This document shows, in pieces, positions 44,910-51,961 of a stretch of 64,000 nucleotides of DNA. The notes under the pieces are model-generated. The model saw only the letters and a list, made by a program, of their open reading frames with translations, ran no database searches and had not been told where the DNA came from. The DNA is taken from positions 1-64,000 of the forward strand of contig QHTE01000063.1 of the NCBI GenBank assembly GCA_003220685.1. The letters run 5' to 3'. The number at the start of each line of letters is the position of its first letter. The stretch's first letter is position 1. The translations under genes and the position numbers were made by a program. This DNA is from Candidatus Rokuibacteriota bacterium. Lineage in GTDB: Bacteria > Methylomirabilota > Methylomirabilia > Rokubacteriales > CSP1-6.

Positions 44910-45452
44910 GTGCCGCGCGTGAGAGAGATCGACGATCCTGGAGGCGATCCGCTCCTGACGGAAGCGTTCGCGAAGGAGACCGACACCTTTGGCTTCGTCC
45001 TCAACACGACGAAGATCCAGGCGCACACGCCGGGGATCATGAAGGCCGCCAAGCAGCTCTCGGCGGCCGTCGAGCACTCCGGCCTCCTGCCGCCGCAGCT
45101 CCTGTCGCTGGTCTACCTGCGCGTCGCCCTGATCAACGGGTGCCCGTTCTGAATCGACATCAACGCATCCAGGGGGATGCGAGCGGGCGCGACGGAGGCG
45201 AAGATCGCCGAGGTCGCCACGGCGCCGACCAGCGAGCTCTTCGACGAAAGCGAGAAGGCGGCGCTCGAGTACGCCGAGGCGATGACGTTCACTGACCGGA
45301 AGGTCGGCGAAGATCTGTTTGCGCGCGTGCGCGCGCATTTCGCCGAGGCGCAGATCGTCGAGCTGACCGCCGCCGTGGCGCTCGAGAACTTCCGCTCCAA
45401 GTTCAACGTCGCCCTCGGCATCGAGGCGCAGGGGTTCTGCCTCATCAAGTAG
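44910..45452 (+). CDS. AhpD/carboxymuconolactone-decarboxylase-family protein, probable selenoprotein (TGA = Sec at residue 81)
   Basis: A single reading frame of 180 residues interrupted only by TGA at 45150-45152. Before it: PGIMKAAKQLSAAVEHSGLL then LVYLRVALINGCPF; after it: IDIN then a full C-terminal CMD domain (EKAALEYAEAMTF ... VELTAAVALENFRSKFNVAL). In cysteine homologues this place reads NGCxxCIDMH, so the TGA stands for the second Cys of the redox CxxC: Cys78-Pro-Phe-Sec81. A 7-bp hairpin follows at 45164-45181. Family knowledge: AhpD-like selenoproteins with CxxU have been reported in marine metagenomes. It probably acts as a peroxide- or thiol-reducing enzyme. A nonsense mutation remains possible. 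Confidence 0.75.
45164..45181 (+). other. Candidate bacterial SECIS hairpin
   Basis: CGCATCC (45164-45170), loop AGGG (45171-45174), GGATGCG (45175-45181): a perfect 7-bp stem starting 11 nt after the in-frame TGA, with G in the loop about 20 nt downstream of it. Bacterial SECIS elements lie directly after the UGA, with a small G-containing apical loop at this sort of distance. The hairpin lies within coding sequence, as expected. Confidence 0.65.
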
Positions 45453-49490: not shown

Positions 49491-50162
49491 ATGGGCGACG
49501 AAACGTTCGACTATCCGACTATGGCGCGCGCGTTGATCCTGGGCGACAAGGACACGGTGGCCCGTAAGACGCGCGAGGGTCTCGACCTCTCGCTCGACCC
49601 CAAGGCGCTCATCTTCAAGGGGCTCATCCCCGGCATGGACGTCGTCGGCGAGAAGTTCCGCCGCAACGAGTACTACGTGCCCCAAGTGTTGCTCTCGGCG
49701 CGGGCGATGTACGCGGGGCTCGATCTGCTGAAGCCGCTGATCACGGCCTCGGCCCGCGGCGGCGACTACCTCGGCATCGTCGTGATCGGCACCGCGCAGG
49801 GCGACCTGCACGACATCGGCAAGAACCTCGTGGCGATGATGCTGGAGGGCGCCGGGTTCAAGGTGGTGAACCTCGGCCGCGACGTGGCGCCGGAGGCGTT
49901 CGTGTCGGCCGTCGGCGAGCACGGCGCCAACCTGGTCGGCATCTCGGCGCTGATGACCACGACCATGCCCGCGATGAAGCGCACGATCGACGCGCTGATC
50001 AAGGCCGGGCTCCGCGAGCGCGTGAAGGTCATGGTGGGGGGCGCGCCGGTGAGCCAGGCCTTCGCCGACGAGATCGGCGCCGACGGCTACGCCAAGGACT
50101 CCACCCTGGCCGTCGTCAAGGCCAAGGCCCTCGTCGCTGCGGCGGCGGAGGTCGCGTCGTGA
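49491..50162 (+). CDS. Corrinoid (B12-binding) methyltransferase protein
   Basis: 223 residues in two parts: the helical cap (residues ~5-90, with KGLIPGMDVVGEKFRRNEYYVPQ) and the Rossmann domain carrying the cobalt-ligating DxHxxG motif (QGDLHDIGKN, near residue 105) and SALMTTTMPAMK. This equals the cobalamin module of MetH or the MtgC/MttC/MtbC corrinoid proteins. It overlaps the following homocysteine methyltransferase gene by 4 bp, so that enzyme is its likely partner. The natural methyl donor is unknown. Confidence 0.93.
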   Translation: MGDETFDYPTMARALILGDKDTVARKTREGLDLSLDPKALIFKGLIPGMDVVGEKFRRNEYYVPQVLLSARAMYAGLDLLKPLITASARGGDYLGIVVIGTAQGDLHDIGKNLVAMMLEGAGFKVVNLGRDVAPEAFVSAVGEHGANLVGISALMTTTMPAMKRTIDALIKAGLRERVKVMVGGAPVSQAFADEIGADGYAKDSTLAVVKAKALVAAAAEVAS

Positions 50163-51109
50163 AGGCGCGGGGCTGGGAGGTCGTCGAGCGGGTGCGCGCG
50201 GGCGAGTCGCTCGTGTTCGACGGCGGCTACGGGACCATGCTGTTCGCGGCGGGGCTCGCGAACGGCGCGTGCCCGGAGCTCTGGAACGATACCCGCGCCG
50301 CGGTGGTGCAGGGGATCCACGCCGGATACTTCGGTGCCGGCAGCCAGATCGTCGAGACGAACACGTTCGGCGGCACGCGCCTGAAGCTGAACGAATACAA
50401 GCTCGGCGACCGGACGCGCGAGCTGAACGAGAGGGGCGCGCGCCTGGCACGGGCGGCCGCGCCCGCGGAGGGCTACATCGCCGGGTCGATCGGACCCACG
50501 AGCCGTCTGCCGGTCGACTACGCGCTCGACGAAGGCGTCACCGACGAGCAATACGTCGAGACGTTCCGCGAGCAGGCCGAGGCCCTCGCCGAGGGCGGCA
50601 TCGATCTCTTCGCGGTGGAGACCATGATGTTCCCGCAGGAGGCCACGGCGGCGATCCGCGCGTGCAAGGCGGCGGCCGACCTGCCGGTCATGGCCACCAT
50701 GTTCTTCCAGTACGAGGAGATTCACGACCGCGACCGGACCATGTGGGGCGAGAGCCCCGCCGAGGTCGCGAAGAACCTGCTCGCGGCGGGCGCCGACGTC
50801 ATCGGGATGAACTGCGGCCGGGGCCCGGACCGGGCGATCGTGATCATCCGCGAGATGCGGCGGGTCACCGACGCGCCGCTCGTGGCCTATCCCAACGCCG
50901 GCCTGCCGATCACGACGGGCGACACCGTGACCTACGAGCTCGGCCCCGAGGAGATGGCGCGCGAGTACCCGGCGCTCCTGGACGCCGGCTGCAACATCGT
51001 GGGCGCTTGCTGCGGCTCCAATCCCGATCACATCCGCCGCATCGCCGCGGTCGTGCGAGCCGCAGGGCGTCGGCGGGCTGGGCCCCGCCCGCCCGAGGCG
51101 AGCCTGTGA
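50159..51109 (+). CDS. Homocysteine S-methyltransferase domain protein (MetH module 1-like)
   Basis: 316 residues forming the zinc TIM barrel that methylates homocysteine. Typical blocks are VFDGGYGTMLFAAGL, IVETNTFGGTRLKL and SIGPTSRL; zinc cysteines lie in GMNCGRG and NIVGACCGSNPDHIR. The GTG at 50159 overlaps the corrinoid gene stop. The last ~20 residues (RAAGRRRAGPRPPEASL) are encoded by the first unit of a 62-bp tandem repeat. Together with its neighbours it forms a split methionine-synthase-like system. Confidence 0.9.
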   Translation: MKARGWEVVERVRAGESLVFDGGYGTMLFAAGLANGACPELWNDTRAAVVQGIHAGYFGAGSQIVETNTFGGTRLKLNEYKLGDRTRELNERGARLARAAAPAEGYIAGSIGPTSRLPVDYALDEGVTDEQYVETFREQAEALAEGGIDLFAVETMMFPQEATAAIRACKAAADLPVMATMFFQYEEIHDRDRTMWGESPAEVAKNLLAAGADVIGMNCGRGPDRAIVIIREMRRVTDAPLVAYPNAGLPITTGDTVTYELGPEEMAREYPALLDAGCNIVGACCGSNPDHIRRIAAVVRAAGRRRAGPRPPEASL

Positions 51110-51173
51110 AGGTCGTGCGAGCCGCAGGGCGTCGGCGGGCTGGGCCCCGCCCGCCCAAGGCGAGCCTGTGAAA
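51050..51173 (+). repeat. 62-bp tandem duplication, repeat family 2
   Basis: Two units, 51050-51111 and 51112-51173, differ at one internal base and the last base; a fragment of a third follows (51174-51190). Each contains the hairpin GGCGGGC-tgggcccc-GCCCGCC and ends gcctGTGAA. The unit is related to the copy at 41264-41321. As 62 is not a multiple of 3, the reading frame changes between units; the first supplies the C-terminus of the upstream gene. Confidence 0.9.
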
Positions 51174-51208
51174 ATCGTGCGCGCTCGAGGACGCCAGAAG
51201 CACCCGTA

Positions 51209-51961
51209 GTGGCTCAGCCGTTTTCCACCCGCCTCAGAGTTCTCACCGCCCTCCCGCTCGAGATCGATCCCGACGAGGTTCTGCGCTTCCAGGGGTACAA
51301 AAAGGCAGTCGACCGGCCCGGTCCCGAGGTGCTGGCGCTCCTCGACGAGGCGCTCGCCCTCGGTCGTGCGCTGATCGCCCCGCGCGCGGTCGTCCGCTGG
51401 CTCGGCGTGTCGCGCCTCGGCGCCGGCACCATCGAGACCGGGGGCGTCGTGCTGACGATTCCGAGCGTCGATCGCCTGTGGGGACCGATCGAGTGGCTGG
51501 CGGCCGCCGTGTGCACTATCGGCGACGAGCTGGAGCGGCGCGTCGCCGAGCTGTGGGAGGCCCGCGAGCTGCCGCTGGCCGCCATGCTCGACAGCGTCGG
51601 CTCGGGCGCCGTCGAGAGCCTGGCCGAGTACGTCAACGATCTCTTCTGTCAGGAGGCGATCCCGCTCGGGCTGCCGGTCACGAACCGGGTGAGCCCAGGC
51701 TACGGGAGCTGGGACGTGAGGCAGCAGACGGCGTTGTTCGCTATCTGTCCGGGCGACCCGATCGGCGTCGGCCTCAACGAGGCCTGCTTCATGACGCCGG
51801 TGAAGTCCATCTCGCTGCTGGCCGCCGCGGGAGCGCGCGCGAAGGTCGACCACTACTTCAGCCAGTGCGCCCGTTGCTGGATGCGCGATTGCGCCTACCG
51901 CCGCACCCCGGCCCGCAAGAGCGTCCACCGCAAACCCAGCTCGCCGCCAAGCCGAGAGTGA
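51209..51961 (+). CDS. Methionine synthase activation-domain protein (MetH module 4-like)
   Basis: 250 residues resembling the SAM-binding reactivation domain of B12-dependent methionine synthase. The SAM motif RxxxGY is present in NRVSPGYGSWDVRQQ, and the CTIGDELERRVAELW and PVKSISLLAAAG blocks match. A Cys cluster (QCARCWMRDCAYR) near the end could bind metal or a cluster. It would re-methylate inactive cob(II)alamin on the corrinoid protein encoded upstream. The GTG at 51209 lies just after the tandem repeat. Confidence 0.85.
   Translation: MAQPFSTRLRVLTALPLEIDPDEVLRFQGYKKAVDRPGPEVLALLDEALALGRALIAPRAVVRWLGVSRLGAGTIETGGVVLTIPSVDRLWGPIEWLAAAVCTIGDELERRVAELWEARELPLAAMLDSVGSGAVESLAEYVNDLFCQEAIPLGLPVTNRVSPGYGSWDVRQQTALFAICPGDPIGVGLNEACFMTPVKSISLLAAAGARAKVDHYFSQCARCWMRDCAYRRTPARKSVHRKPSSPPSRE

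Follow-up and report, generated by a model that had tools for sequence, protein, structure and literature searches.

The gene located at positions 44910..45452 on the + strand of the window, the whole stretch of 64,000 nucleotides analysed here, is best explained as encoding a selenocysteine-decoded small thiol/selenol oxidoreductase of the AhpD-like (CMD) superfamily, with a probability of roughly 0.9. Comparison with its relatives makes it almost certain that the product is a selenoprotein. The coordinates of this gene are exact: it starts with a GTG at 44910, contains an in-frame TGA at 45150..45152 (+ strand) and ends with a TAG whose last nucleotide is 45452. The predicted protein counts 180 residues, with selenocysteine (Sec) at position 81. 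The initial annotation of this region had proposed a probable AhpD/CMD selenoprotein with a CPFU active site, a proposal that is supported by the conservation of the TGA, by the Cys homologues, by a SECIS-type hairpin and by the sel genes.

The existence of AhpD-like selenoproteins, which this annotation had mentioned, is documented: papers on those of COG2128 with a CxxU motif go back to 2005 (PMC1088965, PMC2398784). Their AhpD-like 1 family was described with 27 Sargasso Sea sequences (PMC1088965) and with 299 GOS sequences (PMC2398784), and AhpD-like CxxU proteins are listed again in PMC9312934, where COG2128 is named YciW, and in PMC13188914. As in the window protein, Sec occupies the second motif position of AhpD-like 1, and the best NCBIfam match of the window protein is likewise YciW-related. 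The passages devoted to AhpD-like 1 mention neither Rokubacteria nor Reyranella, nor the loss of Glu or His discussed below; the comparison is made by description, and the window clade may be among these sequences. Judged by titles and the beginning of abstracts, none of the open-access literature on selenoproteins or selenocysteine in Rokubacteria or Reyranella appeared to treat the subfamily of the window protein. Since AhpD-like CxxU proteins are in print and a related NCBIfam "(seleno)protein" model exists, the window clade is taken as a member of this known kind. What is new is a well-supported Sec-only clade of that kind.

Reading frame and conservation of the TGA codon

A mechanical ORF list built with the standard code cuts the window gene in two, with one ORF of 80 residues and another of 91. 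The read-through product, in which U was entered as C for the model scans, matches the whole Pfam CMD model (PF02627) with 54.3 bits against a cut-off of 23. That a single frame passes through a lone TGA, and that the sequence preceding and following it is typical of the family, had been noticed at first sight; the exact coordinates and this complete match bear it out. The product also passes TIGR00778 (AhpD core domain, 32.2 bits, cut-off 27.8), and stays under the curated cut-off of TIGR01926 (peroxidase-related enzyme, 45 bits against 81.8). Its best NCBIfam match is NF053654 (GroundWater_YciW), with 138.3 bits under a curated cut-off of 310. This model, described as "YciW-related (seleno)protein", is similar to the window protein over its full length, but all 11 proteins scanned, among them the paralogue L023 with 228.7 bits, fall under its cut-off and are thus related to it while lying outside it. 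Among the NCBIfam models that the window protein passes, none marks a selenoprotein.

Relatives were collected with six search patterns, one of which (CPFCIDIN) had Cys at the TGA column, and the best 80 of 154, sharing 54-91% identity with the window protein, were taken. A TGA at the residue-81 column, with no further stop in the matched stretch, is present in 80/80 of them, including L075, which ends at residue 126. These sequences belong to Rokubacteria MAGs, to Alphaproteobacteria of the Reyranella/Enhydrobacter type, to some Betaproteobacteria and to a few MAGs bearing other titles. The nearest named relatives, at up to 91% identity, are Candidatus Rokuibacteriota MAGs. The window gene thus adds a firm example of recoding, in a phylum that these relatives suggest to be uncultivated.

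Two genome searches were run with a profile (A1) of 27 rows, two of them being paralogues. Among 95 genomes of the phylum, all 38 full-length matches of at least 288 bits carry one TGA each. Among 190 genomes of the class to which Reyranella belongs (that of genome G102, which holds the Reyranella massiliensis locus L078), such full-length matches have the TGA in 4/4 cases, and the next seven matches by score have no stop and a Cys at the column. The alignment places the TGA, as the initial annotation had done, where CxxC has its second Cys, at residue 81. In the highest-scoring group devoid of TGA (L209, L210, L220-L227), this column is indeed a Cys codon, TGC or TGT, in 10/10 loci. In a second sample that includes the class search, Cys is found at the column in 31 of the 32 non-TGA loci. 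The first sample, in which some genes were counted twice, gave Cys in 8/15 non-TGA rows, the others, which come from CMD genes at a greater distance, having Ile, Val, Ser or Glu.

This conservation bears directly on two other readings of the same letters. A lone stop interrupting an open frame, in a draft assembly (137 contigs, 87.56% complete), could be the mark of a pseudogene, a formerly functional Cys gene in which a TGC or TGT had mutated to TGA. The finding of the same TGA in each of the best 80 of 154 relatives, down to 54% identity and across genera and phyla, the constraint observed after it and the covarying hairpin described below make this reading extremely improbable. The two open frames, which exist mechanically, could instead encode two proteins, the first of 80 residues ending at the TGA and the second of 91 residues restarting at the ATG in position 45177. 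The stop is always TGA, never TAA or TAG, in the same 80 relatives, Pfam matches nothing in the second ORF taken by itself and the Cys homologues run on through the TGA point; moreover, the restart ATG lies within the 3' arm of the hairpin and would leave the motif out. Two separate proteins are therefore very improbable.

The case for a selenoprotein can also be examined at the level of selection. Compared with seven relatives, pN/pS ranges from 0.15 to 0.26 before the TGA and from 0.16 to 0.61 after it. Constraint after the TGA is thus evident when the closest relatives are compared, and less marked with the remoter ones among these seven.

Predicted hairpin and selenocysteine machinery

A bacterial SECIS hairpin, CGCATCC-AGGG-GGATGCG, is predicted at 45164..45181 (+ strand), its first pair being separated from the TGA by 11 nt. 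Its AGGG loop is without the U of the classical bacterial GU loop, which is standard for this element. Folding of individual sequences was considered as a proof of SECIS and found weak. Compared with synonymous recodings, the block following the TGA has a mean z of -1.5 in 81 sequences, with p up to 0.05 in 25/81 and up to 0.01 in 1/81; blocks taken as controls along the length of 20 of these genes, with block means from 0.66 to -0.92, are on average less stable than this block. The window hairpin taken alone is unexceptional in the same test (z -1.08, p 0.17), so the case for a SECIS rests on the comparison between sequences.

For this comparison, 73 of the best 80 of 154 relatives were distributed in two alignments corresponding to different stem registers. 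In alignment A3 (33 sequences, the window included), the six core pairs are intact in 33/33, and at one of the six both sides have changed, C-G being replaced by A-U in four distinct rows. Of the five covariation measures calculated on A3, two were reached by 285/500 shuffles and three by 0/500. In alignment A2 (41 sequences), 97.8% of the cells are paired, double changes affect 5/7 pairs and the five covariation measures were reached by 0/500 shuffles. The sequences omitted from A2 and A3 are L064, L087, L091, L095 and L107, which are near-copies of kept rows, and L046 and L048, which adopt a third register with a GGUCU loop. The predicted hairpin located 3' of the TGA is thus kept through compensatory changes and register shifts. 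Codon usage can be added to these data: among the Rokubacteria, the Ala codon of the stem is GCA in 29/29 sequences having Ala at this place (the other two of the 31 have Ser), and GCA represents 18/768 of the Ala codons elsewhere in the same genes. No Rfam family reached its gathering score in the window, three matches near the window gene with E values of 2-4.5 being taken as chance, and a promoter and terminator scan returned nothing.

The initial annotation had called for a search of the genome for selA, selB, selC and selD, and all four are present. selA (588 bits), selB (363 bits) and selC, the tRNA-Sec with anticodon TCA (69.8 bits), are grouped within 5 kb on contig C73, and selD (334.9 bits) is found on C19. 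This selD match (L010, L112; C19:189837-190781) itself contains one TGA, and SelD selenoproteins are known.

The complete machinery with its tRNA-Sec also bears on a third reading, in which this organism would read UGA as Trp or Gly throughout its genes and the residue would not be Sec. Such reassignments are known from some lineages. The presence of this machinery, the lack of any internal stop in 22/26 Pfam CMD matches of the genome and the hairpin following the TGA leave this reading hardly conceivable. From the sequence, the machinery and the covariation, we infer that Sec is inserted at the UGA in position 45150, which would be decoded by SelB and tRNA-Sec recruited by the downstream hairpin.

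A selA match above cut-off is found in 82/94 genomes of the phylum, many of them without the window clade, and this gene is thus necessary but not specific. Among the genomes having a full-length member of the clade, 37 of 38 were included in the selA search (G081 was not), and 33 are above cut-off. One other, G052, has a selA fragment only, together with selB. Weighing against the selenoprotein reading, three genomes (G060, G077 and G087) contain TGA-bearing CMD genes with no selA match and no selB above cut-off; they are draft assemblies of 220-250 contigs, and a selB-like N-terminus is visible at a contig end in G087. In the proteobacterial hosts, selA was matched in 16/16 genomes tested, 15 of them above cut-off.

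Active site and possible reaction

The solved structures closest to the window protein by sequence are AhpD-like (2ijc, 7xw1, 2o4d, which is PA0269, and 2gmy). PA0269/2O4D, 2IJC, Atu0492/2GMY and the AhpD of M. tuberculosis are all of the CMD type, with the CxxC position conserved as in the window protein. Both redox positions of this motif are occupied in the latter, by Cys78 (codon 45141..45143, + strand) and Sec81. The Phe80 lying between them is not unusual, as a Phe is also found between the redox residues of 2GMY.

The catalytic relay proposed for the M. tuberculosis AhpD comprises Glu118, Cys130, His132, Cys133 and His137 (PMC3141380). The AhpD-like proteins presented in the same article have Cys-x-x-Cys, an invariant His (His55/His137) and mostly the Glu (PMC3141380), whereas the five counterparts in the window protein are Ser66 (codon 45105..45107, + strand), Cys78, Phe80, Sec81 and Asn85 (codon 45162..45164, + strand). 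The replacement by Asn of the His following the motif, pointed out by the initial annotation, is therefore confirmed, but this description was incomplete, as the relay Glu is replaced too. With Ser, Phe and Asn at the positions of the Glu and of the two His, the AhpD relay as drawn is not usable in the window protein. The same holds for its relatives: in the best 80 of 154, the relay Glu is found in 0/80 and Asn stands at the His position in 80/80.

The Cys group L209, L210 and L220-L227, which comes from Alphaproteobacteria and plasmids, is informative in this respect. Its motif region reads roughly RSLVTVRVSQxNxCxFCVDxN. As in the window clade, the His is replaced by Asn (10/10) and the Glu is absent (10/10; Ser in nine, Val in L227), but the redox residue is Cys instead of Sec, and the scores against the profile are 114-172 bits, compared with about 300 for the window clade. 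The change from His to Asn consequently belongs to the subfamily and not to the selenoprotein, and the existence of Cys relatives without the relay implies that some other residue may serve instead.

A selenol, ionised at neutral pH, would have no need of a relay, and one candidate explanation was that Sec permitted the loss of the Glu-His pair. As stated, this explanation was rejected, since Cys genes without the relay were found and no association appeared on the tree. In the first sample, with some genes present twice, Glu and His are both found in 8/151 TGA rows and 6/8 Cys rows; in a tree of 102 rows, they are both found in 8/62 Sec rows and 12/40 non-Sec rows. Six independent Sec/non-Sec pairs on starred branches, a number with which significance was hardly attainable, gave no association between Sec and the state of the relay. 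The group around the window gene provides Sec/Cys comparisons, for example between L185 and L170 or between the window clade and L220-L226, that could be used to test the contribution of selenium to an AhpD-like site, with or without the Glu-His relay.

A redox reaction of the CxxU type is quite probable for the window protein. By analogy with AhpD, Sec81 would be the attacking nucleophile and reduce an oxidised small molecule or a hydroperoxide, Cys78, the presumed resolver of the oxidised Sec, would then close a selenenylsulfide with it, and a cellular dithiol would reopen this bond. Hydroperoxide is the default substrate of the family, and a peroxide is given here slightly less than even odds. 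A selenoprotein with another reaction, for instance a reductive dehalogenation, the activity of the debrominase Bmp8, or the transfer of reducing power to a partner, is a somewhat less probable alternative. Bmp8 is a weaker sequence relative of the window protein (6ohi, E 1.9e-7), and the latter has other residues in place of the Glu and the two His that make up the M. tuberculosis relay with the Cys pair. Against such a reaction stand the AhpD-like nature of the nearest solved structures and the weak peroxidase activity of PA0269 (PMC3141380). A broader proposal, which we regard as unlikely, is that the CxFU/DIN clade and its CxFC relatives would form a separate class of CMD enzymes deprived of the Glu-His relay, using a bare thiol/selenol pair on a substrate other than an alkyl hydroperoxide, with a fixation of Sec in the branch that extended from Rokubacteria into Proteobacteria of the Reyranella type.

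Paralogues, spread and gene neighbourhood

The genome contains five CMD-like genes in which the motif includes an in-frame TGA, and a hairpin is predicted 3' of this codon in all five. They are the window gene (contig C76, CPFU) and those of contigs C113 (CEFU), C50 (SAYU, in which the first motif Cys is replaced), C23 (CEYU) and C99 (CAYU). The C23 gene was found via the window protein and is not one of the genome's 26 Pfam CMD matches. The C99 gene (L135, TGA at locus position 1594) has kept both Glu and His, and its hairpin is CTGCAGC-CGGGAA-GCTGCAG.

The tree of 102 rows, 62 of them with Sec, was built with the Sec column masked and with 24 of the 81 window-clade sequences, rows under 70 bits being dropped except L026 and L027. 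On this tree, whose bootstrap was incompletely settled and in which several long branches were flagged, parsimony counts 10 changes between Sec and non-Sec, at least six of which are forced by starred branches. Sec and Cys have thus been exchanged repeatedly in the group around the window gene. A set of 50 rows unites the window clade, the Cys group, the C113 and C50 groups, L169, L184 and L212, with a support of 85/88 that is not starred. Two cases deserve mention in their own right. In L169 (contig C518 of G044), the motif is CPCS with a TCG where its sister L184 reads CPF-TGA; the Sec codon has disappeared, and a Cys is found one residue earlier than the Sec of L184, as if the redox residue had moved. 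In the group formed by L024, L181-L183, L206 and L207, the first motif Cys is a Ser or a Thr and Sec is the sole redox residue of the motif.

The window clade is common to Rokubacteria and Proteobacteria. Its 11 proteobacterial members in the tree group together as a single starred clade, which joins Rokubacteria branches at an open fork; the nearest row outside the window clade, L179, comes from another family of the window's order. The likeliest scenario is a transfer to the Proteobacteria from a Rokubacteria lineage.

The gene order around the clade was compared in 81 loci, over up to 3 kb on each side, after approximate gene calling and clustering; Pfam names were given to the neighbours in the window only. 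Upstream of the CMD gene, an M28-family peptidase (PF04389; 43971..44885, + strand, start approximate) ends at a distance of 24 nt. NUDIX, methyltransferase and M28 peptidase clusters are found in 16/81 loci each, all in Rokubacteria. The proteobacterial loci are flanked by other genes; no cluster occupies the same place in both sets of loci among the 81, and one dehydrogenase-like cluster (9 loci) occurs in both at different places. The neighbours in these 81 loci gave no clue to the substrate. Elsewhere in the window, at 49491-51961, adjacent genes encode a B12-binding protein, a homocysteine S-methyltransferase and a third protein whose match to the methionine-synthase activation domain is under cut-off, a trio resembling a split methionine synthase.
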